Source: Streptomyces lienomycini (GTDB lineage: Bacteria; Actinomycetota; Actinomycetes; Streptomycetales; Streptomycetaceae). From it: 64,000 bases of DNA. How positions within the stretch are numbered: position 1 is the first letter of the stretch; every line of letters begins with the position of its first letter. Positions 10,213-39,976 of this stretch are shown piece after piece. The stretch covers positions 3,906,001 to 3,970,000 of the forward strand of contig NZ_CP116257.1 of assembly GCF_027947595.1 (NCBI RefSeq), in the 5' to 3' direction. The notes below the pieces were generated by a model, which worked only from the letters and a program-made list of their open reading frames with translations, was not told where the DNA came from and searched no databases. Position numbers and translations under genes: made by a program.

Positions 10213-10389
10213 GTCTGCGGCGGAGCCCTTCCGATGTCCGATATCCGAGCGCGGACCGAAACAGTAGAGATTGACCAGATCAGCGCGGACGGCACACGGC
10301 ATTCGTCGCCTCGCGGACAAGGCCACTGTGACTGAGCCCCGTAGGCGGCCCGGGTGGGCGGCTTCGGTGCTCAGCGTCAGGCGGGGAGG

Positions 10390-11589
10390 TCATGGGTATG
10401 TGGAGCGGCGGCGGTCCCCGCACAGCAACGCAGCGATGCCCTCCCGGTTCTCTGGCAGCCCCGTCGCGCGGAACCACAACCAGTTGCCGCGGACGCTGCC
10501 CGTCGCCTCGTCGGTGTGCACGAACGCCCGCAGCAGCGCACGTTGGGCGGAGGTGAGCGAGCGGGTCGGGTCGTAGCCCCCGGGGAAGGCTCTGAACAGG
10601 ATCGGCCCGCTTTCATGGTCGACGATGGACTTGTGGCCGCCGGTCACCATGGCGATGGCCACGGGCGCGACCTCCTCGAACGACGAGGCCAGGTCGAGCG
10701 CGGAACGCAGCACGGTGAACCGGAACCGCCCGTCGACCCCCCGCAGCGGCTCCGGGAACCATCCGTCTGTCGTGCGGGGGTCTTTCAGCGCGTCGAGGAG
10801 CACGGCGAGAGCGCGAGGCCGATCGATGCGGACGGGACCGAGCGCTGCGCAGACCCGCACGGCCGGGTCGGAGTCGGCGAGCAGGTCGGAGGTGTCCGTC
10901 CCCCAGAGGCTCAGCGCCCGCGCTACGGCCGCTCGCTCCCGTCGGCCCGTCATGGAGCCCAGCCGGGCCCTCAGTAGCGCGGCGGCACGCGGTATCCGGT
11001 CGGCGAGGGCCGGGGCGTACAGGAGCGGAATCGCCGCGCCGAGCGCGGTCTCACAGACGTGGGGGTCGGAGGAGGAGAGGAACGGCTCGACGGCGTCGTA
11101 CAGGGCGGGTCGAATGTCCCGGCACGCTTGCAGCGCGGCGAGCTCGTCGGGGTCGCGCTCGCCGCGCGGGTCCTTGTCCCAGGGCTGCCACTCCCAGTTG
11201 GCTCGATCCCGCGCCGGATCCTCCCCGTAGGCCGCCGACTCAGCCACCTGACCCAGCCAGCCGAGCAGAGCGGCGCGCAAACTACGCGGCGGCCCGTCAG
11301 CCCACGGGAAGTGTCCCTCGTGCTCGGTGACGCCCATGGGATGGTCGAGGATCGCGGCGACGAACAGTGCCGCGGGCGCGGTGACCGTGTACAGCGAGCC
11401 CTGGTGCAGCACGCTCATGTCCAACGCGGCCAGCGCCCGGGAACGCACCTCGGCATCCTCGTCCACGAGGGAGCACAGAGAGACTGGTATGTCCTCGCCC
11501 GAGCCGTAGGCGTGCTGGTGAGAAGCCCAGTCCGTATCCAACAGCAGTTCTTGCGCCACTGCCGGCAACCCCCTGAGGGTCCGCGGCAT
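10390..11589 (-). CDS. HEAT-repeat-like protein
   Basis: A 399-residue predicted cytosolic protein made of repeating paired helices, for example DEDAEVRSRALAALDM, SSSDPHVCETALGAAIPLL and DSDPAVRVCAALGPVRIDRP. These are typical HEAT or armadillo-like units (D.dp.VR..A...L). No enzyme motif is seen. Proteins like this are scaffolds or adaptors. ATG at 11589; no operon partner is adjacent. Function unknown. Confidence 0.75.
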   Translation of the reverse strand: MPRTLRGLPAVAQELLLDTDWASHQHAYGSGEDIPVSLCSLVDEDAEVRSRALAALDMSVLHQGSLYTVTAPAALFVAAILDHPMGVTEHEGHFPWADGPPRSLRAALLGWLGQVAESAAYGEDPARDRANWEWQPWDKDPRGERDPDELAALQACRDIRPALYDAVEPFLSSSDPHVCETALGAAIPLLYAPALADRIPRAAALLRARLGSMTGRRERAAVARALSLWGTDTSDLLADSDPAVRVCAALGPVRIDRPRALAVLLDALKDPRTTDGWFPEPLRGVDGRFRFTVLRSALDLASSFEEVAPVAIAMVTGGHKSIVDHESGPILFRAFPGGYDPTRSLTSAQRALLRAFVHTDEATGSVRGNWLWFRATGLPENREGIAALLCGDRRRSTYP

Positions 11590-12019
11590 ACGGGCGCTCT
11601 CGCTATCCCGTCATACACGCACTCTGCCAGCACCCACCGACAACACCCCCTGCGGAAGCTCACCGGACAGAACCAGCGTTCGCCCCCATCGGGCCACCTG
11701 CCGCTCCTAGGGTCCAACTGGCAAGCCCCTCCAACTTGTTGGCGGGCCGATTGCGGTCCTTCGCACAATCGGGAGACCCAGGGGCCTGGGGGTGCCTTTG
11801 GCTCGTTCAGGCCGTGGTCGTGGCTTTGACCGACTGGCTACCCAGTGCCCTGCGACGACTCGGCCGCTCATTGGAATGAACGAACGGAGGTCGTTCTGTA
11901 TGGGCACGTCGGCGTTTTCGTCTGCAGAGACCAGTCAGCCGATCGGCGAGGGCGGCTCGGGTGCTCGAGCTCTGGGCGGGGACGGCTGCCGGCAAGGCCG
12001 CGCACATTGCACGGGGATC
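11590..12019. other. Intergenic region, nothing recognised
   Basis: About 430 bp upstream of the HEAT-like gene. Short frames on both strands show no recognisable family. The promoter of the minus-strand gene is presumably near 11600-11700. Confidence 0.3.
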
Positions 12020-12460
12020 GACACAGACAGGACGAAGGTGCTCGCGCGCCGCGGCCCCAACAGCGCGCCCCGGAGTCCCTGGAGCTGTGGCATCCGGCGT
12101 CGGCGAGCAATGACCGGACGCGGGGCCCCAGTTCCGCGCGGGGCGGCAACCGGTGGGTGCGCACGGGCTCGGCGATCTCGGCGCCGACGCGGCGCAGCGG
12201 ATCGAGGGAGGCCAGGCGTCCTGGAGGAGGAAGCCGATAAGCGGCCCGGGACTGCGCGCCAGGTGGACCCCCCCGGAGAGCACGGTCCCCCATTCGGGCG
12301 TGTGCGGCTGGGGACCCAGGCCCAGGAAGCTGAGCCCGGAAGGCGGCCCGCGACCACACCAATCGCCGGAACCGGGACGCACATGCCGGCCGGTTGGCCG
12401 GTCGCCGACGAGGTCCCCGAACAGCGTGATGGAGATGTCAGACATCTCGACCAACAGCCC
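12020..12460 (-). pseudogene. Peptide-type ABC transporter relic (permease end fused to ATPase fragment)
   Basis: Minus-strand frames give the DppC-type permease signature GLSFLGLGPQPHTPEWGTVL and then, in another frame, LDPLRRVGAEIAEPVRTHRL followed by RSLLADAG, which matches the linker region of OppD/OppF-type ATPases. The pieces are joined with frameshifts and large deletions. They are the remains of a dipeptide/nickel ABC operon. Confidence 0.6.
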
Positions 12461-12511
12461 GGGGGCCTCGCTCGTCGCGGTTTGGCTGAAAGGTATTCAG
12501 GATGACAGAGG

Positions 12512-13027
12512 TTAGCTGATGCGCAGTTCGATGAGCATGGTTGGTTCCCCAGAGGCGCCGGATTCTCCATACCCGGTGAAGTCATTGGCGGGGGCGTTGA
12601 TGACGGTAGTGGTGCCGTCGTCTTCACGCACAGTGGTCTTCACCGGGTCGGCCGAGGTCCAGATTCCGTGCGCCTTGGGTATCTCGACGGTGAGGAAGGC
12701 GGGCTTGGCTGTGATGTCGAAGCAAAAATCTTGCTGCCCAGTCCGGCTCATGATCCAGATATCTTCACTGCCGTCGCAGGAAGTCATCACGATGTGACCG
12801 TCACCGCGCTTGAGGAGGGCACCCGTCTCCTCGTGAATTCGGGATGCGCCAGGGTAGTTGAAGTCCTCCACGGCATGGGGCATCTCGTCGGTGGCCGCAG
12901 CCGGGGCTGCCGGCGTGCTGTCATCGTCGGCGTAAGCCACGCCGAGCGTCGTCGCGGACGCCGCAAGGACTGCACGGCGCGTCGTACGAGCGTGTGACCA
13001 TGCCCTTCGAGCCGAGTTCGCGTACAC
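12512..13027 (-). CDS. Secreted protein of unknown function
   Basis: A 171-residue protein. The N-terminus has several Arg residues (ARTTRRAVLAASATTLGVA) followed by a hydrophobic stretch, resembling a short Sec or Tat-like signal. The mature part is mainly beta-forming, with two Cys (CDGSEDIWIM and QQDFCFDI) that could form a disulfide. The GTG start at 13027 overlaps the start of the divergent gene at 13000; a slightly downstream start is possible. It ends at 12512 with an acidic, soluble C-terminus. Function unknown. Confidence 0.6.
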   Translation of the reverse strand: MYANSARRAWSHARTTRRAVLAASATTLGVAYADDDSTPAAPAAATDEMPHAVEDFNYPGASRIHEETGALLKRGDGHIVMTSCDGSEDIWIMSRTGQQDFCFDITAKPAFLTVEIPKAHGIWTSADPVKTTVREDDGTTTVINAPANDFTGYGESGASGEPTMLIELRIS

Positions 13028-13458
13028 CGCGCATGCCAGGTAACGGCTGTCAGTCCGGGCAGCCTCCGGACTCGCGAGGTGACGGGTTCGCGGGTGGCTG
13101 CCTGACCCTGATCGCGCTGCTCATCGAGATCCCGGTCGCTTTCCTGCTGGCGCTGACGTTGGGAATCCGCGGATGGGGCCGTGCAGACGAGCGGGCCGGG
13201 ACGCCCCCCATGGACTGGGTTCCGATCCTTTGGCTTGGCGGGTTCACACTGGCCGTACTCGTGATCGCCGGAATCGTCCTGTACTTGGCGCATCCGTTTG
13301 CCGGAGCGGTCCAACTGCTCATCGCAGCCATTGCACTGATCTTCACGATCACTGCTTGGCACGAGCAGTACGAGCGTGCCCATCCCCCTCCGCTGCCGAC
13401 GTGCCCAACGAGGGCTGGGGTGCCGTGCGCTCCATCGAACCTCGTGACCGACCAGTAA
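13000..13458 (+). CDS. Small integral membrane protein (DUF6234-like)
   Basis: A product of about 152 residues with three hydrophobic segments (roughly GCLTLIALLIEIPVAFLLAL, LWLGGFTLAVLVIAGIVLYL and AVQLLIAAIALIFTITAW) and a Pro-rich cytoplasmic start. The layout resembles the actinobacterial DUF6234 membrane proteins; that assignment is from memory. ATG 13000 is preferred over GTG 12994. Its 5' end overlaps the divergent secreted-protein gene, and downstream lies a truncated IS982 element. Confidence 0.55.
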   Translation: MPFEPSSRTPRMPGNGCQSGQPPDSRGDGFAGGCLTLIALLIEIPVAFLLALTLGIRGWGRADERAGTPPMDWVPILWLGGFTLAVLVIAGIVLYLAHPFAGAVQLLIAAIALIFTITAWHEQYERAHPPPLPTCPTRAGVPCAPSNLVTDQ

Positions 13459-13513
13459 GACCGCTGTCATGCATACTCAGCTTGGCCAACTCACAAGCGC
13501 GGTGGCCAACTGT

Positions 13514-14036
13514 GCTGCTCAGTCACATCCGAGAACGCAGACGGGGCGTCCAAGATCGTTCACGGTTCTTCTGGGGCCTGCGGCTGTATCTGGTGTGCAC
13601 CCCGACCGGGATGCCGATCCTGTGGGCCCTGGCGAACCCGAAGCTGGACGAGCGCGAGGTGCTGACGGCCATGCTGGACCGCGAGCCGGACGCGGTCACC
13701 GACCGGCCCGGGCTACTGCTGATCGCAGACAAGGGCTTCGCCTCCAAAAAGTTCGAGGCCGACCTGGCCTTGGGCGGGGCGGTGTTGCTGCGGCCGTCGT
13801 TCAAGCGGGAGAAGCGTCGCAAGGGCGAGTCCTTGCTGAAGTCGGTGCGGCAGTTGATCGAGTCGGTGAACGACACCCTCAAGGGCCAGCTCGACCTGGA
13901 ACAGCACGGCGGCCGGACCTTCGAGGGCGTCGCCGATCGCGTTGCCCAGCGTGTCCTCGCGCTGGCGGCGGCGATCTGGGACAACCACAAGACCGGACAG
14001 CCGGTCAGGCGGTCTCTGATCGCTTACGACCACTGA
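13514..14036 (+). pseudogene. IS982-family transposase, 5'-truncated
   Basis: Long intact C-terminal region: FFWGLRLYLVCTPTGMPILW, GLLLIADKGFASKKFEADL, SVRQLIESVNDTLKGQLDLE and AQRVLALAAAIWDNHKTGQP, ending SLIAYDH. These are diagnostic of Streptomyces IS982-type DDE transposases. The first ~120 residues with the first Asp are missing. Confidence 0.8.
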
Positions 14037-14189
14037 TCACATCGGAATGACTCGTCTAGAGCGGCGAGCGGGGGCCGTGCCCGTCGGTGATCAGATGGTG
14101 CTCCGAATCGGCCCGGCCCCGGTCAACCGGCGAGGGACCTGTCGGGCTCCCTCTTTTGTGTCCCTGACGTGCGAGGAGTCGACCGTACA

Positions 14190-14745
14190 CCTCGGACGAC
14201 GGCGGCCGACCGCCGTCGGCCCCTGGAAGCCAGCGCGTGGAAGTACCGCACCTGCTCGCCCTGGCGCGACCTGCCAGAGGAGCTCGGACCCTTTTAGACT
14301 GCACACAAACGCCTGATCAGATGGGGTGTGGACGGCACATGGCAACGGGTCCTCGCAGTGGTCCTTGCAGTCGTGGATGCCGATGAGGAGGTGGGCTGGA
14401 CAGACTCGGTGGCCTCCACCGTCTGCCGCGCTCACCAGCATTCGGTCGGTGCCAGGAAAAGGGACGCCCGGCCGGTTTGAGCCCGAGGATCACGCGCTCG
14501 GACGCTCCCGCGGTGGCTTGGGTACTAAGATTTGCGTGGCCAGCGGCAACCAGGCACGACCTCTGTCCGTTCACGTCACCACGGGGCAGGCTGGCGACGC
14601 GCCAGCCTTCTTGAGGCGGTCATGGCTGGAATCCCGATCCCGCGGAGCGACCTCGGTAGGCCAGGAACCCGCGCTGCGTCCGTTGTTGCGGATCGCGTGT
14701 ACTCTTTCCGCTCATTCCGTGGGCACTTCCGTTGACGCGGTATAG
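14190..14745 (+). pseudogene. IS5-family transposase relic
   Basis: Frames spell WRDLPEELGPF, RLIRWGVDGTWQRVLAVVLA, VDADEEVGWTDSVASTVCRA plus HQHSVGARKKG, and DHALGRSRGGLGTKICVASG. The order and motifs match the larger relic at 49610-50440. Several stops and frame changes are present. Confidence 0.7.
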
Positions 14746-14747
14746 GT

Positions 14748-15395
14748 GCGATGGTCCCGCAGCCCGCCGACCAGATAGGCCATCGCCTGCGGAGGGCCAC
14801 GCTGGAGGCCGCCAAGGTTGTCCATGATGACGCAGATCGTGGCGCCGTCGGGTCGGGCGGCACGGATCGACTTCAGCGCGGCCAGGGTGTCGGTGCCCTT
14901 GCGACGGCGGTTAGCGCCCCACAGACGGTCGTCGCCGAGGAGTAACAGCCGTCGAAGTAGGTGACGCCGTGCGTCCGATGGCAGGACGCAGGGAGCCGGT
15001 CGGGCTTGCCGCGTTCGGCCCAGCATGACTCTGCGGTAGGGCGGATCCCCAACTGCCCGAACTCGTCGAAGGTGTCGAAGGTGAAGATCCGGTCCGGGAA
15101 GCGTTTCAGCACCTGCTCGATACGGTCGAGTTTGGCGTCGCGCTCGGGGTCGGGGTTGGGGTCGGACGACTTCTTCCAGGTTTAGGTGGGCTGGAAGGTG
15201 ATGCCGCAGCGCAGGAGCAGGCACCGTAAGGCTTGTCGGCCGATGTGGATGACGCGTCCGTGCAGACCCTCGAGGGGCGGGAGGCCGCCCCGCCTGCTCA
15301 CCCCTGCCGACGAGAACCACGTCATCCAGACGGCCGCCACCCGCCCCGCCGAGCTCGGCCAGCCCTTCACTCGCTGGCCGCTCCGCAAACGCGCC
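14748..15395 (-). pseudogene. IS630-family transposase relic
   Basis: Minus-strand translation gives HIGRQALRCLLLRCGITFQP, an in-frame TAA near 15182, then TWKKSSDPNPDPERDAKLDR and FPDRIFTFDTFDEFGQLGIR. After a frame change it gives GTDTLAALKSIRAARPDGAT and CVIMDN. These are IS630 DDE blocks (DEFG and the IxDN Asp). Confidence 0.7.
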
Positions 15396-15439
15396 GCCTA
15401 CCTGCGCCGAGTCCGTTTTCCGTCGGTGAGGCGCGAGTC

Positions 15440-15700
15440 GGGTAGCTGCGGCCTCGATGTCGAAGTGCGTGGTGCGGAGTTCGATGCCCAGACCCAGCAG
15501 ATCCCAGTGCGTTCCGGTCCGTCCGTGGGGCATTGCCGATGCTGCCAGCGGTTGCACACCAGCCGGCCGTGGGCGAGGAGGACGATCGGCATGTGGATGT
15601 GACCGCAGGCGATGGTGTCGCCCCGGGGCGCTGAGGGAACCGCTTCGGCGCGAAGGGCGAAGGACTGGTGAAAGCCCGAGTATTCGAGCATCGTCCGTTG
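15440..15700 (-). pseudogene. Metallophosphoesterase C-terminal fragment
   Basis: Minus-strand frames encode DTIACGHIHMPIVLLAHGRL (the GHTH metal-binding motif, here GHIH) and, after a frameshift, PHGRTGTHWDLLGLGIELRT. This matches the end of YfcE/ApaH-like phosphoesterases. The N-terminal metal-binding motifs are absent. Confidence 0.6.
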
Positions 15701-15716
15701 GACGAGAGGAGCCCCG

Positions 15717-16349
15717 ATGACCGTCGGACCAGGCGTCGGCATCGGCGCCGCGCGTGCCGATGCGGAGAGCGACGCCTCAGTGATCGCGCGGTCCCGGGAT
15801 GACCCCGAGGCGTTCGCCGTACTCTTCGACCGGCACGCCGACGCCGTGCACCGCTATGTGGCCCGCCGCCTCGGCGGTGAGGTCGCCGATGACCTCGTGG
15901 CGGAGACCTTCACCACCGCGTTCCAGCAGCGGCATCGCTACGACCCGGCCCGCAGCGCCGGCGCCGATGCCCGGCCCTGGCTGCTTGGCATAGCGACGAA
16001 CTTGGTCGGCCGGCACCGGCGGGCTGAGGCCCGCCGGTTCAGGGCCATGGCCCGGGTACCGGCCCTCGCCGATCACGACGAGCCGTTGGCCGACCGGGCT
16101 GCGGACCGGGTGGTGGCGAGGGCCGTACGCCGCGAACTGGCTGCTGCGCTGGCCGCGCTGCCCGCTCGGCACCGGGACGTGCTGCTGCTGGTGGCCTGGG
16201 GGGATCTCGGCTACGGGGAGGCTGCCCAGGCCCTCGGTATCCCGGTGGGCACGGTCAGATCACGGCTCCACCGGGCTCGCAGCAAACTGCGCGAAGCGTT
16301 GGGCGGATCCGATCCGACGGCACTGCGAGAGGTATCCGACCATGAATGA
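15717..16349 (+). CDS. ECF-type RNA polymerase sigma factor
   Basis: A 210-residue sigma-70 family factor. Region 2 spans about 28-90 (FAVLFDRHADAVHRYVARRL, DDLVAETFTTAFQQR) and region 4 about 140-195 (LPARHRDVLLLVAWGDLGYG, then GTVRSRLHRARSKLREAL). ATG 15717 follows GAGAGGAG. The stop overlaps the next gene by 8 bp, so the two are coupled. The partner is a CU044_5270-type membrane protein rather than a zinc-finger anti-sigma, a pairing common in Streptomyces. Target promoters are unknown. Confidence 0.92.
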   Translation: MTVGPGVGIGAARADAESDASVIARSRDDPEAFAVLFDRHADAVHRYVARRLGGEVADDLVAETFTTAFQQRHRYDPARSAGADARPWLLGIATNLVGRHRRAEARRFRAMARVPALADHDEPLADRAADRVVARAVRRELAAALAALPARHRDVLLLVAWGDLGYGEAAQALGIPVGTVRSRLHRARSKLREALGGSDPTALREVSDHE

Positions 16350-17310
16350 CGAACTCGAACTCCTGAGGAAGTGGGACGCGGACGCGGCCCCCCTCACCGG
16401 TCCGGCCCGGGACCGGGCCCGGCACCAGCTGCTCAACGCGATGGCCCACGCGGACCAGCGCGTCACCGCCGACCCGGGTCGCCGCGATGCACTGCGTCTC
16501 GCTGCGGCCGCAGTGGTCGCCACGGCCGTCACGGGGACTGCGGTCCTGTTCGGCACGAACGGCTCCGGCGAGGACGGCACGCCGGGCGCGAGCACCCTGC
16601 GGGTGGAGAACGCCGCCGCGACGGTGCTGAACGGTGCGGCGGCGTGGGAACGCGAGCAGGAGAAGCAGCCGGTGGCGCCGCGCGGTGACCAGTTCATCTA
16701 CTCGAAGCGGATCATCAAGGAGACGGAGCAGAAGACCGGCAAGGTCAAGACCTACACCGACGAGATGTGGGACTCGGTGGACGTCTCCAAGCCCTCCTTG
16801 GCCATGGAACTGGGCCGCGAGATGTGGGAGCAGCCCGCGGAGAAGGGCGGCGGGGTGTGGCCGCCCCGGCAGTGGACCGAGCTGAAGACGCTGCCCCAGG
16901 ACCCGGAACAGCTCGTCATGGCCATCATCTCCCTCGGTTCCAGTCCCGACGGCAGGTCGATCAGCGATCTCGACAAGCTCGAGCGGTACGAGGCCTACTG
17001 GCTGCTCGGTGAGCTCCTGAAGAACCCGCTGCTGCCCCAGGGGCTGCGCCCCGCAGCGTACGAGGCGCTGGCCCGTGTGCCCGGCGTCAAGACCATCCCG
17101 GGAGTGAAGGACTCCGCCGGGCGGACCGGGGTGGGGATCGCCCATACCGGGCGTGGGTCCTACGAAAACAAGTACCTGATCTTCGACCCGGTGTCCTACG
17201 AGTTCCTGGGATTCCGCGACGAGCGGACCTCGACTTCCGGAAAGAAGTACATCCAGCTGTCGCACGTAGTGGACTGGGGGATCGTCGACCGGGTGAAGCA
17301 GCGCCCGTAG
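16342..17310 (+). CDS. CU044_5270-type membrane-anchored protein, sigma-factor partner
   Basis: A 322-residue protein. A cytoplasmic N-terminus of about 50 residues (ELELLRKWDADAAPLTGPAR) precedes one transmembrane helix around residues 52-72 (LRLAAAAVVATAVTGTAVLF) and a long extracytoplasmic domain rich in charged residues. This layout and the position directly behind an ECF sigma gene identify the CU044_5270 family, presumed to modulate the sigma factor. The N-terminus is the likely sigma-contacting part. It begins 8 bp before the sigma stop codon. Confidence 0.8.
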   Translation: MNDELELLRKWDADAAPLTGPARDRARHQLLNAMAHADQRVTADPGRRDALRLAAAAVVATAVTGTAVLFGTNGSGEDGTPGASTLRVENAAATVLNGAAAWEREQEKQPVAPRGDQFIYSKRIIKETEQKTGKVKTYTDEMWDSVDVSKPSLAMELGREMWEQPAEKGGGVWPPRQWTELKTLPQDPEQLVMAIISLGSSPDGRSISDLDKLERYEAYWLLGELLKNPLLPQGLRPAAYEALARVPGVKTIPGVKDSAGRTGVGIAHTGRGSYENKYLIFDPVSYEFLGFRDERTSTSGKKYIQLSHVVDWGIVDRVKQRP

Positions 17311-20867: not shown

Positions 20868-23800
20868 TCATGGTCCGGTGACGGCTTGAGGGAACGTGAA
20901 CAGCCCTTCCGGATCGCTGATGGCCTTGACGTGCTGCATTTTCGGATAGTTGCGGCCGTGGTATGCGGTGGGCCAGTCGGTGAGTTCGGGGTCCATGCCG
21001 TTGGTGTAGCCGCCGGCTCCGAGGTGGGGCTGCATGGCGGTGTGGACGTCGCGTAGCCAGCCGGTTCTGCGATCGACATGGGCACGGTCGGTGAGCTGGT
21101 GCCAGTAGGAGTGGTACTGGACGACGCCGACGGCGTTGCGGTGTGGGAACACGGTGGCTTCGGGGGGCCGGTCGTTGACGGCGCCGCCGAGGGCGTCGAT
21201 GAGCAGGCCGCTGGCGCCGCCCACGCCGGTGAAGGCGTGCAGCTGCTCGAGAGCCGAGGCCATGTCGGTGGCCGCTGCCGGGCTCAGGTGCTGGCGCACG
21301 ATGTGGGATTTGGCGGCGAAGGCGACGCGCGGTCCGAAGGTGCCGGCGCCCCAGCGGTCCGCTTCACAGGCGGCCCGCGGGTAGTCGCAGGGAACGGTCA
21401 CCCGGCCGGTCTCGGGCCGGCCTACCGTGGCGGTCAGCCGGTCCAGGAGCGGATCGAGGTCGTCTGGTGTTCCGATGAAGGTTCCGGTCACGGTGGGCTG
21501 CGCGGGCATGCCGGAGTCGCTGAGCTGCTCGAAGGCGCAGGTGATCGTCCGTGGTGTGGCCGGGTCCGCGTTCCACAGCGTCCAGCCCCTCAGGACTGCC
21601 GAGGTTGCGCTGGTGGGCCAGCTGGCCAGGAACCGTGTGAAGGCGAGGTCACGGATGTCCTCGGTGGCGAACTGAAGAGCGGTGACGACGCCGTAGTTGC
21701 CTCCGCCGCCCCCGCACAGAGCCCAGAACAGGCCGTCGTCGGGCCAGGGCGAGTCGGCGTGGACGCGGCGGATGCGGCCGTCAGCGGTGACGATCTCGGC
21801 TTCTTGCAGGTGGTCGCAGGCCAGTCCCCAGGCTCGGGTGAAGGCGGACAGTCCGCCGCCGAGGGTGAGGCCGGCCAGGCCGATGGTGGGGCAGCGGCCC
21901 AGCGGCAGGCCGGCTCCGGCCGTTGCCAGCGTCTGGTGGGCCTGCCCGCCTTTGACGCCGGCGCCGAAGCGTGCCCGGCCGTCGCGGACCGTGGCGCTGC
22001 TCAGGGAGCTGGTGTCGATGACAAGTCCGGGTCCGGTGGAGTAGCCGGCGTAGCTGTGTCCTCCGGAGCGCAGCGCAAGGGAGACACCGGTGGTGCGGGC
22101 GAACCGCAGCATTTCGACGACGTCGTGGGCGTCGGCCGGGTAGGCGATCGCCTGCGGACGGATGTGGTCGAAGCGCTGGTTGACCAGAAGTCGGGCTTGT
22201 TCGTAGGCGGCCTGTTCCGGTGTCAGAAGTACACCGCGCAGATGCGTCTGAAGCGCTGACCAGTGAGGGCCGGGCGTCCGGGACCGGACTCGCCCGGATG
22301 GGACGGGGGCCGGGACGGCGGGCAGGCGGGCGGCGCGCAGGGCGGACAGGGTGTGGAGGTCGGCGAGGACGGGATAGTCGAACGGCAGTGGCCGGGGGCC
22401 GACCTGGTCGGGCGGCGAGGTGAACCCGCCGTCCGGGTCCTGCTGGGCCAGCAGGTAGGCCACCGCCCGGCTCACGGTGAGCGGGTCGCCGTGTCGCGCG
22501 AGTACGGGGACGGCCTGGGCGGTGGAGAGCACGTCGCTCAGCTCGTCGGGCAGTTGCCCCCAGCCGCCGTCGGCGTTCTGTGTCGCGGTGAGACGTGCCA
22601 CGGACCGCACGGTCGCCTCGGCGATCCGGGTCGTCAGGCCGGCATCTGCTGTGGGGACGGCGTGCAGGGCGTCCAGGGCGCGCAGGATGGCGCTGGACTC
22701 GCTGACCGTCCAGCTGCGTTCGAACGTCCCGTCCGTCTGCTGGGCGTTCAGCACGAACTCCAGCGCGCCCGTGAGGAGACGCTCGTGCTGGGCGGCCCGT
22801 GGGGCCAGGGCGAGGATCGCGCCGGCGGTCATGTCCAGGTCCGGCGTGTCGCCGCACACCCAGGTGGGGAAGCCCCCTTCGGGACCTGCGATTTGGGTCA
22901 GGTACCGGGTTGCCCTCTCGAGCGTCTCGTGGTGGCGGTCGGGGTCGGTGGCGTGCAGGAACTCCATGCAGCGGGTGGTGGTGTCCACATCGGTCTGCTG
23001 CATGCCGGTGGCGAACGGCCAGCCGCCGTCGGCGGCCTGCCAGGATGCCACGAGATCGGCCATCCGCGGAACGAACCGCGCCAGCTGGGTCTCGTCCTGG
23101 AACGCCAGGCCCGCCACGGCGGTCAGCCACACGTCCTGGCTGTCCAGGAACGGCACACCGTCGTCGGCGTTGACCGCGAGGCACAGCCGCAGCAGGCCGT
23201 CGTCGAGAACGGGGGAGGCGGGCCGGAAGGTCCGCACCGCGTGCAGGCCGAGCAGGAAGGTGGTGGCGCTGGCTTCCCACAGCACCCTGTGGCGCCCCAG
23301 CGACAGCAGCGACACCAGGCGCTCCCGCTCGGCGTCGGTCATCGCGTGCGGGCGGCCGCGGGCGTGCGCGTGGATGATCCGCGCCGACAGCAGGTGCACG
23401 TCGGTGAACGTGGTGACGCCTCCCGGCCCGACCGGGGCAACCGTATCGCTGTCGCCCAGCGCCGAGCCGCACAGCAGATGCAGCACCGTACTCAGCATCA
23501 CAGACTTCAGCCGACCACGCCCGGCCGTACCGCTGCTCACCGCCATCGGCAGGCCGGCGGCCACAGACGGCGCACGTTCGGCCATGCCCGCCGGGTCCAG
23601 GCAGGCGTCGATCAGCAAAGCGTCCAGCCTGCTCGCGACAGGCCGACGCCGCTCAAGGAAGCGAGCCAACCGGTCCCGCTCGCCTACTTCGCGGCCCCGG
23701 GCCCGCAGCAGGGACAGCAGCAACGCGGACTCCAGCACCCGGCTGCCGCACCGGTCCTCCACATGCCCGGCCGCGTCCACGGCGACGGCCAGATGCTGCA

Positions 23801-24773
23801 CGAGCGCGGGCAGCCCCCGTTCATGACCGCCGGACGTGACAGCTTCCCCGCACGTGTTGCGGTGCGTTTCCCGCTGCCAGGCCAGACAGCCGCCGAGCAC
23901 GCGACGGATGAGCGCAGCCCGCTCGCCGTGCGCTGCCCGGTCGAAGTCGTCCATGCGCTCGGCCAGCATGCCGCGGGCGTGGGCCGCCGCCTGCAAGCGG
24001 TTGCACCCGTGATGGCGGGCGAGCACACCGACCAGGTTCTCCGCGCCCTCGTCCTCCTCGCGCGCCGCGGACCGCAGGTCGTTGGTCCAGCCGACGATGT
24101 CGGCGCATGCGTCCCTCAGCTCGTCGAGCTCGCCCGCTACGGGCAGGGCCCGTTCCACCACGGCGAGCAGCGGCAGCACGGTGACGGTACGGCGCCGCAA
24201 GGTCAGATACTCGTCAAGCCCGAGGCGTTCGCCGCAGGCGCGCTGCCGGATCTCCGTGCACGTGGCCTCGGCGAAGTCCCGATACAGCGCGAGGAAGTGC
24301 CGCCGCCAGCCAGGCCGGGCCACGATGCGCGTGTGCTCCCACAGCTCGGCGAGCGCCCGCACCAGAGGTGCCGCCGACGCCGGATGCCGGGTTCCGTCCG
24401 GACCGTCCAGCACCTCGAGGAACTCGTCCAGCGCTGCACGCGTCTGCGCCGGTGACTGACCCTGGCGGTCGAAGCCGTCATCCACCAGCGCGATGAACGC
24501 ACCCCACTGCGCGATCAGCCCCAGCTCCGCCTCTCCCGCTCGCGGAACCAGCCATCCGGCCATACGCCCGTGGCCCGTCCGCGCCAGCCGCCGCTTCTGC
24601 TCCTCACCGGCGACCAGACCGTGCCGCACCGCCCAGGACCGCACCTGACGCTCGGCACCGACCCAGCCTGGGTTGCACACCGTGGCCGGCCCCCCGACCG
24701 GGCCGTCTTCCGGACGCAAGCCGCTCGCGAGCCCGGAGGCCAGGAGCTCACTCGTCCCTCCCGGAGTACTCAT
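20868..24773 (-). CDS. Three-domain terpenoid enzyme: class I terpene synthase + class II-type cyclase + BBE-like flavin oxidase
   Basis: One uninterrupted 1301-residue frame. Residues ~34-310 are an all-helical class I terpene synthase with Asp-rich motif DDGFD (98-102) and an exact NSE triad (N231, S235, E239 in NDLRSAARE), both metal-diphosphate motifs. Residues ~345-815 form an alpha/alpha-barrel of the squalene cyclase/prenyltransferase repeat type, with five DGGW/DGGF-like repeats (579-587, 630-638, 678-688, 732-740, 777-786) and DVDTT (595-599), a variant of the class II DxDD acid motif; DLDM (645-648) is a second candidate. Residues ~840-1301 are a berberine-bridge-type FAD oxidase with GGHS (H906) and GRCPTIG (C961), the two positions used for bicovalent FAD. 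ATG 24773 follows GAGAGGGTG. Inferred role: cyclisation, diphosphate ionisation, then oxidation, probably on farnesyl or geranylgeranyl diphosphate. No signal peptide; no biosynthetic neighbours. Confidence 0.85.
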
Positions 24774-25827
24774 GCCACCCTCTCGGTACCGCGCACAAAC
24801 GCTCCGCACAGACTCCTCGCAGGTCTTCTGGCTCTCCGGATGCTGCTATCGCCACAGGGCAAAGCGACCGATGGCTGTACCTGCCTGCGCATCTCATGCT
24901 CCATCCGTCATCCACGGCACCCGCCGTCCGATCCAGAACACCCCGGCCAGGCGGGACAGGGAGCGGCCACAACGTCAAACCACCCTTCCGTGCGAACCGC
25001 GTGCCACGAACGAGTCCCGAGCAGAGCGCGGCGGTCCTGCGCCGCGGGGACGCTGACCGGCTTTCCTCCTCCGCATCCCGAGCCCGGCCATCCGGCTGGA
25101 CGGGCGGTCCGGCAGTCGAACGGCGAGTTGCCCGTCGACACGGACTACCTGACAGGCGTCGGCCGGGACACGAACCGGGTTGGGCTGCGTGCGGGGCCGG
25201 ACGCCTTCGGGTCGATGTGACCCGACCAGCACAGACAACTGCCCTTGGACCGGGTGAAGGACCTCGGCCTGGCCCAGAAGTTCCAGCCTCGCGCGGTGCC
25301 TGCGTACGGCGCTGGACGCCCGGCCGCTCACCACCGACAAGAACTGACCTGCGAGGGCTGACTTGCTCCGCGGCCCGCGGGTCGGCCCCACCCCACGTCC
25401 TCGTGACCGGCTTCCGGGCTGCGTGATGGTCAGTGCGCGCAACTATGCGTAACCACGTCGCAGGGGAGAGTGCCATGACGTTACGGTTCGTCGAGGCCGA
25501 TCCGAACACCGGAGACCAAGAGTCGTGCGGCACTTTCATGCAAGGGCCTCAAGGGCGCGGAGGCTGTCTGCCCACCGCCGGCCGCGGACCGGATCGGTCG
25601 GCATCAGCGGCTCGATCCGGCCCACAACCCATCAGCGATCACTAACCGAATGGACACGTCCGATCAACTGACCAGCCCGCCATAGAGATACGCTCTGGCT
25701 CGGCGAGCGGCTGCCGTGCTGGGACTTCCCGTATCGGCGGCGCCGCGAGGCTGCCTGAGACGTCTGGCGAGCGACGAACCGAGCGTCGTCGAGGGGCGTT
25801 CTTCTGATCCGTCCCACCCGCAGCCGG
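24774..25827. other. About 1 kb of non-coding or degraded DNA
   Basis: This holds the promoter side of the terpenoid gene. A short frame at 25474 (MTLRFVEADPNTGDQESCGT, preceded by GGGGAGAG) resembles the start of a small Streptomyces protein family but runs into an unrelated tail by 25560, so it is probably a stub. The rest shows no recognisable protein, RNA or repeat. Confidence 0.4.
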
Positions 25828-26430
25828 TCACATCGGCGACGGTGGAGCGGAGGCCGGGCCGGAGGCCGTGGTGTGCTGTTCGAGGCCGCCGAGGATGAGC
25901 GCGAGGCCCGCCTCGAAGGCCACCTCGTGGTCGAGTGCGGGGACGTCGTCCGGGAGGGTGTCGCCCGTCTGCTGCTCTGCGTCTGCCTGTTCTTCCAGGA
26001 CGCAGCCGACCGTGTACCGGCCTGCGGCCAGCATCGCCATCTGCGCCTGCAGCTCGGGTACGCCGGAGGAGGCCAGGAAGGCCATCTTGTGGCGGATCCG
26101 GCCGAGGTCGCCAGTGGGAGTGCTGCCGGCGTGCAGTCGGGCGCCGTCGCGTCGCATCAGGAGTGTGCGGCGGAAGCTGCGGGAGTTCTCCAGGAACCAC
26201 GCACGCCAGTTGTCCTCGGGGGAGGGGAGCGGGGCGTTGGCGTGCGGGGCCATGGCCGCCTGTGCCATGGCCGCGAGCAGGTCGCTCTTGGTCCGGAAGT
26301 GGTAATAGAGCGACGGTTGTTCGACACCGAGGCGCTTGGCGAGCCGTCGGGTGCTGACCGTTTCCAGGCCGACGTCGTCCAGGAGATTCAGCGCCTCTGT
26401 GACGACGGTCTCACGGTTCATCTTGGTCAC
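25828..26430 (-). CDS. TetR-class repressor (TetR_C-type)
   Basis: A 200-residue repressor. HTH at ~20-45 (VSTRRLAKRLGVEQPSLYYH) is nearly that of classical TetR. The C-terminal part (EDNWRAWFLENSRSFRRTLL, MRRDGARLHAGSTPTGD, then FEAGLALILGGLE) also follows TetR(B)-type proteins. It lies divergent from a TetX-like flavin monooxygenase, and the 72-bp gap holds two tetO-like sites. Expected role: derepression of the monooxygenase (and itself) by a tetracycline-like or aromatic polyketide ligand; the ligand is inference. Confidence 0.9.
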   Translation of the reverse strand: MTKMNRETVVTEALNLLDDVGLETVSTRRLAKRLGVEQPSLYYHFRTKSDLLAAMAQAAMAPHANAPLPSPEDNWRAWFLENSRSFRRTLLMRRDGARLHAGSTPTGDLGRIRHKMAFLASSGVPELQAQMAMLAAGRYTVGCVLEEQADAEQQTGDTLPDDVPALDHEVAFEAGLALILGGLEQHTTASGPASAPPSPM

Positions 26431-26438
26431 GTTGACAA

Positions 26439-26453
26439 TCTATCGCTGATAGA
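26439..26453. promoter_or_regulatory. tetO-like operator 1
   Basis: TCTATCGCTGATAGA is a perfect 6+3+6 palindrome that differs from the core of classical tetO (TCTATCATTGATAGA) only at two central bases. It lies directly upstream of the tetR-like gene. Confidence 0.8.
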
Positions 26454-26468
26454 AGACCGTTGGAAGAA

Positions 26469-26483
26469 TCAATCACCGATAGA
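26469..26483. promoter_or_regulatory. tetO-like operator 2
   Basis: TCAATCACCGATAGA shares the GATAGA arm and spacing of operator 1, with one altered base in the other arm. It lies 20 bp before the monooxygenase start. The centre-to-centre distance of 30 bp resembles tandem tet operators. Confidence 0.65.
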
Positions 26484-26502
26484 TTCTTGGGGTGGGTCGG
26501 CC

Positions 26503-27750
26503 ATGACGAACGGGATCACGAGGCGTTCGCTGCGCATCCTCGTCGCCGGCGGCGGCATCACCGGGCATGCGCTGGCCTTCTGGCTCACCCGTGACGGTCA
26601 CCGGGTGACGGTCGTCGAACGCTTCCCGGCGCCGCGTGCCGCAGGTGCGCAGGTCGACCTTCGCGGCCAGGGCATCGAGGCGGTCGCGCGCATGGGACTG
26701 CTGGAAACGGTGCGGGGCCGGCTGGTGGACGAGGCGGGTGTGGCCTTCATCGACTCGCGCGGCAAGCCGAAGGCGACGATCATGGCGAACACCTCCGGCA
26801 GAGGCCGCCAGTCCCTGACTTCTGAGTACGCAATCATGCGCGGCGACCTGGTCCGCATCCTGTACGAGGCGACCAGGAACGACACCGAGTACGTCTTCGG
26901 CAGGAGCGTCGACGGTTTCGTCCAGGACGCAGACCGGGTCACCGCGCACTTCTCGGACGGGACCAGTGACGAGTACGACCTGCTGGTCGGCGCCGACGGG
27001 CAAGGTTCACGCGTCCGCCGGGCCCTGCTGCCGGAAGGCGCGGATCCGTACTGGCGCGTGGGCATCCACATGGCCTACTGGTTCGTGCCGCGTATCGCCT
27101 CGGACAGCAACATCCGTGACACCTACATGGTCCCGGGCGGTCGGCAGATCATGCGGCGCAGCCACAACGCGACCGAGACCCAGGTCTACTTCGTGCTGCG
27201 CGAGGAGTCGGCAAAAGCGTCCGCGATCCACCGCGCTCCCGTCGAGCAACAGCAGAAGTTCTGGGCCGACCGGTTCCGGGACGCCGGATGGCAGACCGGC
27301 CGGTTCATCGAGGGCATGCAGGACAGCCCGTTCTTCTACTCCCAGGAGATCGTCCAGGTGCGCACCGACCGCTGGTACAAGGGCCGGGTGGTCCTGGCGG
27401 GGGACGCCGCGCACTGCGCTTCCCCCTACAGCGGCATGGGAATCTCCGGCGGTCTGGTCGGCGCCTACGTCCTGGCCGGGGAGATCAACCGGCACCCGGA
27501 CGACCTGCCGACCGCGCTGGCCGACTACCAACGAGTCCTGCGGCCCTTCGTCGACGAGATCCAGGACGAGGTCGATCCCCGCATCCTGCGCCTGGGCATG
27601 CCCAAGCATGGGCACGCCATCAGCGCCTTCCAGAATGCCACCGCGCTGGCCTGCTTCTTCCACCTGCCCGACCTGGTCGCGCGGTTCTCCAGGAAGGACC
27701 GCGGCGGTGGCTGGCAGCTGCCCGCCTACGCCGACACGCGCGCCGTCTGA
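26503..27750 (+). CDS. TetX-like FAD-dependent monooxygenase
   Basis: A 415-residue flavoprotein hydroxylase. FAD motifs: GGGITG at 16-21 with acidic E39 after beta-2, ADG at 164-166, and the FAD-ribityl GD motif at 300-301 (VVLAGDAAHCASPYSGMG). This is the group A aromatic hydroxylase fold that includes TetX and many polyketide hydroxylases. ATG 26503 lies 20 bp after a tetO-like site. Paired divergently with a tetR-like gene, it may inactivate a tetracycline-like molecule or serve detoxification; the substrate is not proven by sequence. Confidence 0.9.
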   Translation: MTNGITRRSLRILVAGGGITGHALAFWLTRDGHRVTVVERFPAPRAAGAQVDLRGQGIEAVARMGLLETVRGRLVDEAGVAFIDSRGKPKATIMANTSGRGRQSLTSEYAIMRGDLVRILYEATRNDTEYVFGRSVDGFVQDADRVTAHFSDGTSDEYDLLVGADGQGSRVRRALLPEGADPYWRVGIHMAYWFVPRIASDSNIRDTYMVPGGRQIMRRSHNATETQVYFVLREESAKASAIHRAPVEQQQKFWADRFRDAGWQTGRFIEGMQDSPFFYSQEIVQVRTDRWYKGRVVLAGDAAHCASPYSGMGISGGLVGAYVLAGEINRHPDDLPTALADYQRVLRPFVDEIQDEVDPRILRLGMPKHGHAISAFQNATALACFFHLPDLVARFSRKDRGGGWQLPAYADTRAV

Positions 27751-27911
27751 GCCGCCCCGCCCTGCGGCGCAGGAGCGCGGACCGGCGAGGTGACGCGGAC
27801 CGGTCAGTGGGCGGGGGCGGCCCTGTGCCGCTCTTCCGCGGGCGGCGGCGCCCCCGGACGGCTGTGTACGGACCGCGGACCGGCGCGGTGCACAGGGGTG
27901 AACAGCTCCTT

Positions 27912-29426
27912 TCAGCCGGGCGCACCCGCCCACGCGGTCAGTGCCTGGACCCGCTCGTCACGGCGTACTCCGCAGTCGGTGGTACGGGTGGCCCAGGCGA
28001 CGTGGCCGTCGGGACGGACGAGAACCTCGATCACACCGTCGAGGTCGGCGTGTTCGTCGTACTGGTTCGCGGTGACGGCTGTGACCCGCGGGTCCCAGCC
28101 CGCGTCGACGGACTCCCGAAGGGCAGGGTCCCCGGCCAGGGACAGCAGAACGAAGCGGCCCTGGGTGAGCAGTTCGTACACTCGCGTCGCCTCCGCACCG
28201 GCGGTGGTCAGCCCGACGTCGGGCATACGGCGCCCCACCAACGGATCGGCGCCCGCGGCGGGCGGCGGGTAGCTGGTGCCGAGCGCGGAGACCTGGTCGG
28301 CGAGTCGGCGGTTGACCTCCGTCATGCCCAGCAGCTGGTCGAGGAGTGTGCGCAGGGCCGCGGCCGGGCGCTGGTACTGCGCGACCAGTGTCAGCTCCGC
28401 CAGCAGGGTCTGGACCTCGGTGTTCTCGGTCACCGACTGGCCGACCGGCCGGCGTTCCGCGTCGTAACTGTCGAGCAGTCCGGGCGGGGCCCAGCCGTGC
28501 ACCGCGGCGGCCAGCTTCCACCCCAGGTTCATGGCGTCCTGGAGCCCGGTGTTGAGCCCCTGGCCGGCTGCGGGGAAGTGGATGTGGGCGGCGTCGCCCG
28601 CCACCAGGACGCGTCCCGCGCGGTAACGCTCCGCGAGCCGGGTGGCGTTGCCGAAGCGCGACAGCCAGCGAGGCTCGGCGATCCCGTAGTCGGAGCCGGT
28701 GATCCGGGCCAGTGACGTACGGAACTCCTCCAGCGTCACGGGCTCCCTGGCCGGCACGCGTATCCGCTCCGGGTCCAGGTAGACCAAACGGGTGACCCCT
28801 CCCTCCAGCGGCGCGACGATCACGCCGCCGGCCCGTGCCGCATCAAGGGCACCGGGCTGTGGGTCGACGACCGCGAAGTCGCCGAGTACCCCGGTCAGGG
28901 TCTCGTCGGTGCCGGGGAAGCCGATCTCCGCGGCCTGCCGCACGACGCTGCGCCCGCCGTCACACCCGACCGCGTAGAGGCAACGGACGGTCTCCGTGCC
29001 GCCGCCGGGGATACGCACCTCCACCCCGACCCCGTCGTCGTCCTGGCTCAGGCCGAGGACCTCGTGCCCCCGGCCGATCTCCACTCCGAGCTCGCGCGCC
29101 CGCTCCTCGAGGACCGCCTCGGTGCGCGCCTGGGCCAGGAAGAGGGTGTAGCCGTGCCGGGAGTCGAGGGCGCTGAAGTCCAGCCGGGTGCGCAGGCCCG
29201 CGAAGTGCCAGCCCGGCACGGTGCGGCCGAGCGGAAGGAACCGGTCGAGCAGCCCTCGCTGGTCCATCAGTTCAACGCTGCGCGGGTGCAGGCTCAGCGC
29301 CCGCGAATCGCGCTGCGGTTCGGTGCGGCGCTCCAGGATACGAGTCCGTACGCCCGCCAGTGTCAGCTCGCACGCGAGCATCAGCCCGGTCGGTCCCGCG
29401 CCCACGATGATCACATCGGTGTCCAT
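27912..29426 (-). CDS. FAD-dependent aromatic hydroxylase (polyketide/rifampicin monooxygenase type)
   Basis: A 504-residue group A flavin monooxygenase with GAGPTG at 9-14, the DG motif (CDGGRS, about 154-159) and GD motif (VAGDAAHIHFPAAGQGLNTG). It has the long C-terminal thioredoxin-like domain (FVLLSLAGDPALRESV to DGHVAWA) typical of polyketide hydroxylases and rifampicin monooxygenases. A strong AAGGAGGG precedes ATG 29426. It is divergent from a TetR gene with a perfect 32-bp palindrome between them. Probable detoxification or tailoring enzyme. Confidence 0.9.
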   Translation of the reverse strand: MDTDVIIVGAGPTGLMLACELTLAGVRTRILERRTEPQRDSRALSLHPRSVELMDQRGLLDRFLPLGRTVPGWHFAGLRTRLDFSALDSRHGYTLFLAQARTEAVLEERARELGVEIGRGHEVLGLSQDDDGVGVEVRIPGGGTETVRCLYAVGCDGGRSVVRQAAEIGFPGTDETLTGVLGDFAVVDPQPGALDAARAGGVIVAPLEGGVTRLVYLDPERIRVPAREPVTLEEFRTSLARITGSDYGIAEPRWLSRFGNATRLAERYRAGRVLVAGDAAHIHFPAAGQGLNTGLQDAMNLGWKLAAAVHGWAPPGLLDSYDAERRPVGQSVTENTEVQTLLAELTLVAQYQRPAAALRTLLDQLLGMTEVNRRLADQVSALGTSYPPPAAGADPLVGRRMPDVGLTTAGAEATRVYELLTQGRFVLLSLAGDPALRESVDAGWDPRVTAVTANQYDEHADLDGVIEVLVRPDGHVAWATRTTDCGVRRDERVQALTAWAGAPG

Positions 29427-32144: not shown

Positions 32145-33065
32145 TCAGGGCTCCGCGGTCCGTCCGTAGCGCGGTGCGCTGTCGTCGTCGAGCGCCGACA
32201 GGAAGCCGTCCAGGGTGGTGGTGACCTCGTCAAGGCTGCGGGCGCTGAAGAGTACTGGCTGGTACCCGGAGATGTCGTACTTGGTGGCCAGCATTGCGCG
32301 GATGTCCAGTGGACGGATCCGGGCCTGCCGCAGGCGGCAGATCTCCCCGGCGGAGGAGAGCAGAGCTGCCCCGTATGCCTTGGGTATGCCTGCCTCGTCG
32401 AGGATTCCGTACTCCAAAGTGAACCAGTACACGTCGCTGATCATCTGGAGGACGTCCTTGTTCTGGACGCGCATGGCCGCGTCGCCGATCAGCCGGTAGA
32501 CGTCGGCGAAGGCGGGCGAGGCCAGGTGGATTCCGTGACCGAAGACGTCATGGATGATGTCCGGTTCGGGGGTGAACATCGGTACGGCCGGGTGGCGGAC
32601 GAATTGCACGGCGTGGAAGTAGCCGTCGGCCATCGACCCCAGGAACCTCTTGTTGCCGACCACACCGCCCGCGACGGTGAAGTCGAAGCCCGTCAGCGCG
32701 CGCAGGTGCAGCCCGACTTCGGCGTGCTGCGGGATGTGGTCCGCCGGAACGGGCGCCTGTTCACGGGCGTCGAGGGCGGCACGGCAAGCATGCTCACGTT
32801 GGGCGTTCCAGAGCCGCTGGTGGACGGTCCGCCAGGTCCGGTGCTCGGCCTCGGTGTAGTCCACTCGTGGGGAGGGGGCACCGACCCGGTGTCCGCGGGC
32901 CAGCGAAGCGATGGCCCGACGCCGCAGCAGGTAGCGGGGGTCACTGAGGCCAGGGTGCTTGGCGGCCGCGTCGAGCCGGCCGTCGGTCGCGATCGGCGTA
33001 CGCACGTGATTCTCTCTCACAAACCCGATTCTTTCGGTCGGCGCGCAGCCGGAGCACCCGGACAC
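32145..33065 (-). CDS. Aromatic amino acid hydroxylase (phenylalanine 4-monooxygenase-like)
   Basis: A 306-residue (or about 290) pterin-dependent non-heme iron hydroxylase. The iron triad is visible: H172 and H177 in HDVFGH and E218 in WFTLEYG. Flanking blocks (TGFDFTVAGGVVGNKRFLGS, FTPEPDIIHDVFGHG, ISDVYWFTLEYGILDEAGIP) are classical. It converts an aromatic amino acid, most likely Phe to Tyr, using tetrahydropterin. The start is uncertain: ATG 33065 gives a Cys-rich leader, while a GTG 15 codons later gives a more usual N-terminus. No pathway genes adjoin. Confidence 0.9.
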   Translation of the reverse strand: MSGCSGCAPTERIGFVRENHVRTPIATDGRLDAAAKHPGLSDPRYLLRRRAIASLARGHRVGAPSPRVDYTEAEHRTWRTVHQRLWNAQREHACRAALDAREQAPVPADHIPQHAEVGLHLRALTGFDFTVAGGVVGNKRFLGSMADGYFHAVQFVRHPAVPMFTPEPDIIHDVFGHGIHLASPAFADVYRLIGDAAMRVQNKDVLQMISDVYWFTLEYGILDEAGIPKAYGAALLSSAGEICRLRQARIRPLDIRAMLATKYDISGYQPVLFSARSLDEVTTTLDGFLSALDDDSAPRYGRTAEP

Positions 33066-34033: not shown

Positions 34034-34036
34034 TAA

Positions 34037-34921
34037 GAGGTCCTAACAGAAGTTGTTGATCATGTGACTTTCGGCTTGGGTGGTCGTTGGTCCGTTCGTG
34101 GGGAAACGACAGTCGCGGCCCTGGGTCGTGTCGGATGAACTGTGGTCGCTCATCGAGCCGTTGCTGCCCGTGCCGGGTCCGAAGCTGGTGGAGGGCAGGC
34201 CGCGGGTCCCGGACCGGCAGGCACTGTGCGGGATCCTGTTCGTGCTGCACACCGGCATCCAGTGGGAGTACCTGCCCCAGGAGCTGGGCTTCGGCTCGGG
34301 GATGACGTGCTGGCGGCGCCTGGCCGCCTGGAACGAAGCCGGCGTGTGGGACGGACTGCACCTGGTGCTGCTGCAGAGGCTGCGGGCCGCGAAGAAGCTC
34401 GACTGGTCCCGGGCGGTGATCGACTCCTCCCACGTACGGGCCGCTCGGCGCGGCCCAAAAGCGGGCCCAGCCCGGTCGACCGCGCACGACCGGGCAGCAA
34501 GCACCACGTCCTCACCGACGGCCAGGGCATCCCGCTCGCGGTGTCGCTGACCGGCGGAAACCGCAACGACGTCACCCAGCTGCTGCCGCTGCTGGACAAG
34601 GTTCCGGCCGTGGCCGGCGTCGTCGGCCGGCCCAGACACCGGCCAGACGCACTCCTCGCCGACCGCGGCTACGACCACGACAAGTACCGCCGCCTGCTGC
34701 GACAGCGCGGGATCCGACCGGTCATCGCCGAACGAGGCGTCGAACACGGCTCCGGCCTGGGCGTCTTCCGCTACGTGATCGAGCGCACGATCGCCTGGCT
34801 GCACGGCTTCCGCCGACTGCGAATCCGCTGGGAACGACGCGACGACATCCACGAAGCCTTCCTCGGACTCGCCACCTGCCTCATCACCCACCGCCACGTC
34901 CAACGCCTTTGTTAGGACCTC
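34037..34921 (+). mobile_element. IS5-family element, copy 1 (885 bp)
   Basis: Terminal inverted repeats GAGGTCCTAACAGAAG (left) and, inverted, GAGGTCCTAACAAAGG (right). Flanked on both sides by TAA, consistent with a 3-bp target duplication. It carries one transposase in two overlapping frames. Confidence 0.9.
34080..34915 (+). CDS. IS5-family transposase made by -1 frameshift (copy 1)
   Basis: The first frame (GTG 34080) encodes the N-terminal region (SDELWSLIEPLLPVPGPKLV, GSGMTCWRRLAAWNEAGVWD, VIDSSHVRAA with the first catalytic Asp). The second frame supplies the rest (SKHHVLTDGQGIPLAVSLTG, DALLADRGYDHDKYRRLL with the second Asp, GVFRYVIERTIAWLHGFRRL with the Glu). They overlap at CCCAAAA (34454-34460), an ideal X_XXY_YYZ slippery heptamer read as C_CCA_AAA in the first frame. 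IS5/IS427-type elements use such frameshifts. Confidence 0.85.
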
Positions 34922-34939
34922 TAAGTGAGGTGTCTGAGC

Positions 34940-39078: not shown

Positions 39079-39088
39079 CGCCCTCTAA

Positions 39089-39973: not shown

Positions 39974-39976
39974 TTA

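Follow-up and report, generated by a model that had tools for sequence, protein, structure and literature searches.

A gene for a conserved three-domain protein in Streptomyces lienomycini, a putative self-contained terpenoid megaenzyme with class I, class II and flavin oxidase domains

The gene and its three domains

We have analysed a window of 64,000 nt from the genome of Streptomyces lienomycini (contig NZ_CP116257.1, positions 3,906,001 to 3,970,000 of the forward strand), and describe a gene in it that encodes a putative terpenoid megaenzyme, in which a class I terpene synthase (alpha) domain, a class II cyclase (beta-gamma) domain and a flavin oxidase domain are joined in one chain of 1301 amino acids. 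The frame lies on the minus strand at 24773–20868, with an ATG at 24773 and a TGA at 20868–20870. Residues are numbered from this ATG; an in-frame GTG at 24809 would lengthen the protein by 12 residues. The conservation counts below come from alignments of 33 rows (A2) and 30 rows (A4); a further alignment (A1) has 13 rows. The features of the gene are:

20868..24773, minus strand: whole gene, ATG to TGA, alpha – beta/gamma – flavin oxidase; the full-length frame is open in 10 of 13 related loci
24778..24784, minus strand: GAGAGGG, 4 bases 5′ of the ATG, a candidate ribosome-binding site as read from the sequence
23844..24692, minus strand: class I terpene synthase (alpha) domain, residues 28–310
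24468..24482, minus strand: DDGFD, the DDxxD metal-binding motif, residues 98–102; D98, D99 and D102 in 32/32 rows holding the domain
24057..24083, minus strand: NDLRSAARE, the NSE motif, residues 231–239; N231 in 32/32, S235 in 30/32 and E239 in 28/32 rows
22326..23822, minus strand: class II beta-gamma cyclase, drimenyl-diphosphate-synthase-like, residues 318–816
22977..22991, minus strand: DVDTT, the acid motif, residues 595–599, aligned with DVDD of SsDMS; D595 and D597 in 33/33 rows
22239..22325, minus strand: linker, residues 817–845, variable and of low model confidence
20871..22238, minus strand: flavin oxidase domain resembling berberine bridge enzyme (BBE) and EncM, residues 846–1301; PF01565 and PF08031, EncM 31% identity, TMt 0.83
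22053..22064, minus strand: GGHS, residues 904–907; H906 in 30/30 rows
21888..21899, minus strand: GRCP, residues 959–962 (within GRCPTIG, 959–965); C961 in 30/30 rows

A prediction made earlier from the letters of this DNA alone had claimed a single frame of 1301 residues, with no strand named, and had raised a stop or frameshift between the domains as what would speak against it. The frame is in fact open from ATG to TGA, and every motif claimed as intact (DDGFD, NDLRSAARE, DVDTT, DGGW/DGGF, GGHS and GRCPTIG) is found in it, with the repeat units DGGW at residues 582–585 and 735–738 and DGGF at 781–784. An artefact of frame choice is ruled out by stops on the plus strand across 20868–24773 and by the full-length open frame in 10 of the 13 related loci. 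The fraction of G and C at third codon positions is gene-like across the alpha, beta-gamma and flavin domains (0.86, 0.90 and 0.85).

A Pfam scan places Terpene_syn_C_2 at residues 89–276 (2e-33), SQHop_cyclase_N at 573–656, SQHop_cyclase_C at 642–784, FAD_binding_4 at 873–1004 (1.8e-24) and BBE at 1256–1298 (1.3e-8). This order agrees with the claim that the class I domain comes first, and the scan, together with sequence and fold comparisons, supports all three family assignments of the original prediction. NCBIfam gave 18 partial matches, among them class I synthases, squalene cyclases and flavin enzymes such as BagK/FevA1, and none reaches its curated cut-off. The structure was predicted as two overlapping parts. 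Fold searches with the alpha-beta-gamma model (predicted TM score, pTM, 0.85), the only use made of it, confirmed a class I terpene fold for alpha and a didomain fold for beta-gamma. No plant tri-domain synthase stands among the best 50 structure-comparison rows, which is no evidence against a shared arrangement. The model of the flavin-containing part is weak (pTM 0.49) and does not place the flavin domain confidently relative to the rest; the FAD_binding_4 and BBE domains and their fold are present.

The family and its conservation

A protein search across about 5.8 billion proteins, with at most 8000 candidates scored, gave 49 matches. One of these, P0002 (99% identical), is the window's own protein or a near copy and was set apart. 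Among the other 48 homologues 36 carry all four signatures PF19086, PF13243, PF01565 and PF08031; the remaining 12 comprise two that lack the BBE model (P0031, P0043), one that lacks alpha (P0039), seven that lack the flavin domain and two that are flavin-only (P0048, P0050). The original prediction had suggested a search for homologues of the same three-domain order, and had noted that homologues existing only as three separate genes would speak against a fusion. Most are fused, and the order is alpha, beta-gamma, flavin in all compared homologues having three domains. The named hosts cover several actinobacterial genera, among them Streptomyces, Kitasatospora, Nonomuraea, Amycolatopsis, Saccharopolyspora, Saccharothrix, Actinosynnema and Streptantibioticus, as well as the myxobacterium Nannocystis.

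Two exact peptide patterns, which by their exactness miss divergent members, were also run against 84,980 species at one genome per species, and gave 13 loci. Ten hold an open full-length frame; in the other three the frame ends after about residue 650 (L014), is split into several frames (L016) or is partial at a contig end (L017). Within the genus the gene is rare, being found in one of 121 sampled genomes, the window's own (E ≤ 1e-100, query residues 1–830). With the whole protein as query (E ≤ 1e-60), none of 40 relatives was found to have the whole chain; 18 gave a flavin-oxidase match and one a beta-gamma match. The same search of the window's own genome, which is one contig of 7.86 Mb, returned two matches, one at this gene and one, to a flavin oxidase, at another site (residues 821–1301, 38%). 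Ratios of nonsynonymous to synonymous substitution (dN/dS) of 0.19–0.33 in every domain (7 of 36 pairs) indicate that all three domains are under purifying selection.

The three-domain fusion is real and conserved, and not an artefact. One might still argue that the fusion arose in assembly or annotation, or that it is a scaffold carrying a dead domain, since separately encoded parts occur in database records and three of the 13 loci have broken or partial copies. We regard this as highly improbable and already largely refuted: the frame is open in ten loci from separate genome records, the window's genome is a single contig, and motifs and dN/dS hold in all domains.

Evolution and modular variants

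The original prediction had named the phylogeny of each domain as a check. The three domain trees (31, 31 and 43 rows) agree broadly. Because the trees are midpoint-rooted and contain long branches, flagged for P0044, P0168 and P0029 among others, what we say below of duplication and exchange rests on groups and not on rooting. The flavin tree separates the 33 family rows, among them three separately encoded proteins (P0051, P0053 and P0056), from 10 outside relatives with support of 100/100.

Four homologues (P0023, P0024, P0028 and P0029) have two flavin domains each. The second ones group with the flavin domain of the fragment P0048 in a single clade (100/100) next to the first ones, in keeping with an internal duplication. 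Two of the genomic loci have this tandem arrangement (L013 at 9845–15622 and L015 at 9656–16402), with open frames of 1925 and 2248 aa. Other additions are found at the C-terminal end: a short-chain dehydrogenase in P0029, with the same dehydrogenase families in the precomputed list for P0023, and GXWXG/DUF4334 in P0044. The beta-gamma domains of P0038 and P0039 are divergent, at 54–55% identity to that of the window, and group with P0049 (100/100), while their flavin domains are 77–78% identical to the window's and nested in a clade of 11 rows (98/96). From this grouping, the flavin domain of P0038 and P0039 appears as a case of module exchange.

These variants lead us to suggest, tentatively and as somewhat short of an even chance, that the family is a modular bacterial terpenoid assembly chain. 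In such a chain an alpha-first class I/II fusion, opposite in order to that of plants, would be combined with swappable oxidation modules, so that a single stand-alone gene would provide for building the scaffold, removing the diphosphate and tailoring, and would evolve as the polyketide or peptide megasynthases do, through duplication and exchange of domains. With the same reserve, the swappable modules may be one or two covalent-flavin oxidases, a dehydrogenase and the GXWXG/DUF4334 tail.

Proposed reactions and alternatives

In bacterial drimane pathways the class II cyclase is followed either by a Nudix hydrolase and cytochromes P450 (PMC11035983) or by a fused haloacid dehalogenase (HAD) phosphatase (PMC9128629). 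Since the class I and flavin domains could fill the places of these later enzymes, we propose a self-contained terpenoid megaenzyme that would carry out protonation-cyclisation, diphosphate ionisation and oxidation in sequence, and give this reading a probability of about 0.58. In the first step beta-gamma, with D597 as the predicted general acid, would protonate a prenyl diphosphate, most likely farnesyl diphosphate (FPP), to give a bicyclic drimane-type diphosphate. In the second, alpha with Mg2+ bound at the DDxxD and NSE motifs would ionise the bicyclic diphosphate, followed by rearrangement, further cyclisation or quenching by water; other bacterial drimane systems have a separate Nudix hydrolase or a fused HAD phosphatase at this step. 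In the third, covalently bound FAD would oxidise the product, either from alcohol to aldehyde or ketone or by dehydrogenation, where the known Streptomyces drimane pathway has P450s. The original prediction had likewise described one polypeptide that cyclises a prenyl diphosphate, removes the diphosphate and oxidises the product; this chain of reactions fits the domain anatomy, from which we infer step order, substrate and product.

The beta-gamma domain points to FPP. The sole PDB sequence that it matches at E ≤ 1e-5 is SsDMS, the drimenyl diphosphate synthase of Streptomyces showdoensis (PDB 7xq4 and variants), which is itself described as a beta-gamma didomain enzyme (PMC13244436). The match spans the whole length of beta-gamma, and SsDMS structures are ahead in the structure comparison by about 6 to 8 Z units. 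SsDMS differs in having DVDD for DVDTT; in the megaenzyme the didomain is furthermore fused to a class I domain on its N-terminal side and to a flavin oxidase on its C-terminal side. The same order of steps could instead start from geranylgeranyl diphosphate (GGPP), with beta-gamma making a labdane-type diterpene diphosphate that alpha processes and the flavin domain oxidises. We consider this unlikely. It would accord with the best PDB sequence match of alpha, a Streptomyces type I diterpene synthase (9m25), and with the assay of reported bacterial class I/II fusions in GGPP-producing cells (PMC11469919), but it is opposed by the match of beta-gamma to the FPP-cyclising SsDMS and the lead of its structures, and by the best structural rows of alpha, which are sesquiterpene synthases.

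Alpha comes first in the chain, and squalene-hopene cyclase (SHC) and MstE are structural neighbours of beta-gamma. SHC-type folds act on substrates without a diphosphate. Alpha might then act first in the reaction as well, ionising the prenyl diphosphate to an olefin or alcohol which beta-gamma would protonate and cyclise as squalene-hopene cyclases do, with the flavin domain last. However, the closest relative of beta-gamma, drimenyl diphosphate synthase, yields a product that retains the diphosphate, and linear domain order need not equal reaction order, so that we find this sequence of events quite improbable.

For the oxidation we presume, from BBE-type enzymes, that H906 is the predicted site of 8-alpha attachment of FAD and C961 that of 6-S attachment. 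By sequence and by fold, EncM and BBE rank among the closest neighbours of the domain, and these enzymes do more than alcohol oxidation. An EncM-like oxygenation or oxidative ring closure on the terpene would therefore be an alternative third step, compatible with any of the readings above. We hold it to be somewhat unlikely, as aligned EncM variants have Val at the position of C961, a residue conserved in all 30 family rows, as it is in doubly attached BBE-type oxidases.

Several observations weigh against the proposed FPP cyclisation, ionisation and oxidation in one chain. R194 (32/32 rows) and R305 (33/33) of alpha are, we assume, the diphosphate sensor Arg and the first residue of the C-terminal RY pair. 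Position 198, which we take to be the helix-G effector and Gly in typical enzymes, is Thr in 32/32 rows, and the Tyr of the pair is replaced by Asn306 (29/33 rows), so that the chemistry of alpha may differ. Alpha is closest by sequence to 9m25, at 29–30% identity, and a C20 substrate is therefore possible. Identity of the flavin domain is about 31% with EncM and does not exceed 46% with non-family relatives among the matches listed, and its exchange in P0038 and P0039 indicates that an oxidase need not always go with the same cyclase. The parts also occur apart, with 7 of the 48 homologues lacking the flavin domain and one lacking alpha. Among the best 120 of 6859 matches listed in a search with the flavin domain (this and an alpha search scored at most 8000 candidates each), separately encoded proteins are 69–79% identical to the domain; P0051, of 470 aa and 79% identity, covers nearly all of it and has no identifiable partner.

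The alpha search gave six proteins at 51–71%, including fragments, one broken copy and P0170, which at 386 aa corresponds to the whole alpha domain; the next match is at 29%. P0051 and P0170 could either be free-standing enzymes or pieces of split genes. Three pairs of flavin and alpha-beta-gamma proteins (P0053 with P0041, P0055 with P0040 and P0056 with P0045) come from source contigs of equal size. They look as if the gene had been split near the linker, by a real split or a sequence error.

Comparison with known systems

A 2024 review describes the two classes of terpene enzyme, I and II, as prototypically separate in bacteria (PMC11795633), and a fusion of class II and class I enzymes has been built artificially to mimic those of plants and fungi (PMC9814783). 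Five putative bacterial class I/II fusions have been reported among 15,498 species, all of them gamma-beta-alpha with DxDD, and three of the five had the expected bifunctional activity (PMC11469919). The bifunctional diterpene cyclases/synthases CseDCS, ChjDCS and StrDCS have both classes in one bacterial protein, as here, but in gamma-beta-alpha order, with DxDD and no oxidase mentioned in the parts of the paper available, whereas the megaenzyme has alpha first and an added oxidase (PMC11469919). No alpha-first fusion is reported in those parts, and "FAD" does not occur in the main text. Membership in this plant-like group is ruled out by the domain order, since alpha stands at the N-terminus both in this protein and in those relatives with three domains that were compared. 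The original prediction drew its comparison with plant enzymes alone; these bacterial fusions share the plant order (PMC11469919).

Bifunctional drimenol synthases of the AsDMS type resemble the megaenzyme in coupling class II cyclisation to loss of diphosphate in one chain and in having a DxDTT motif, but they combine an HAD-like N-domain with a beta domain, whereas the megaenzyme has no Pfam HAD match and an oxidase in addition (PMC9128629). An HAD-type drimenol synthase is ruled out, as Pfam finds PF19086 in the N-terminal part and no HAD model at a maximum E of 10. The cav pathway of Streptomyces clavuligerus comprises class II cyclisation, diphosphate removal and oxidation in an actinobacterium, as proposed here; it differs in using separate genes, a Nudix hydrolase and P450s where the megaenzyme has a class I domain and a flavin oxidase encoded in a single gene, and its cluster also has a separate class I cyclase, CavF (PMC11035983). 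With EncM and BBE the megaenzyme has the FAD_binding_4 and BBE domains and fold in common, and differs in that its flavin oxidase is the third domain of a terpene synthase chain.

In the open-licence literature of PubMed Central we found no account of a protein that combines class I, class II and flavin oxidase domains; subscription papers may describe one. Each domain belongs to a known family, and as far as this literature shows, their combination and order are new. The family looks like a separate fusion, in reverse order to the reported bacterial ones and with an oxidation step added. The few chemical steps that lead from a building block to an oxidised product may here be encoded in one gene. 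If active, the enzyme would lead from a prenyl diphosphate to an oxidised terpenoid by way of one gene, would be a natural setting in which to test how intermediates pass among three active sites, and would serve as a model for modular domain shuffling in terpenoid enzymes.

Genomic surroundings

We compared the neighbourhoods of the 13 related loci and the window over flanks of at most 10 kb, with frames called mechanically; the contigs of two loci (L005 and L017) end near the gene. Within these flanks every neighbour family is confined to one or two of the 14 loci, and the largest shared run of neighbours is that of L011 with L014, downstream of the gene. A gene cluster is ruled out, within the flanks visible, by neighbours being common to at most two loci, and the megaenzyme gene appears to be the whole conserved unit.

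Around the megaenzyme gene in the window there are flavin monooxygenase genes, genes for regulators of the TetR and LysR types, a sigma factor gene and one for a biopterin-dependent hydroxylase. Two flavin monooxygenase genes (FAD_binding_3) on opposite strands adjoin it at 25873–29426, the second with the C-terminus of an aromatic-ring hydroxylase. Among the related loci the second has one match, of 37%, in L015, and the first has none. A gene for a biopterin-dependent aromatic amino acid hydroxylase lies at 32145–33065 on the minus strand. Further away, 34034–34925 and 39085–39976 are inverted copies of an 892-base stretch, 100% complementary and 4159 bases apart. A frame at 34080–34547 matches an IS4/5-type transposase model (DUF4096), and another IS4/5-type transposase gene lies between the inverted arms at 37790–38677.
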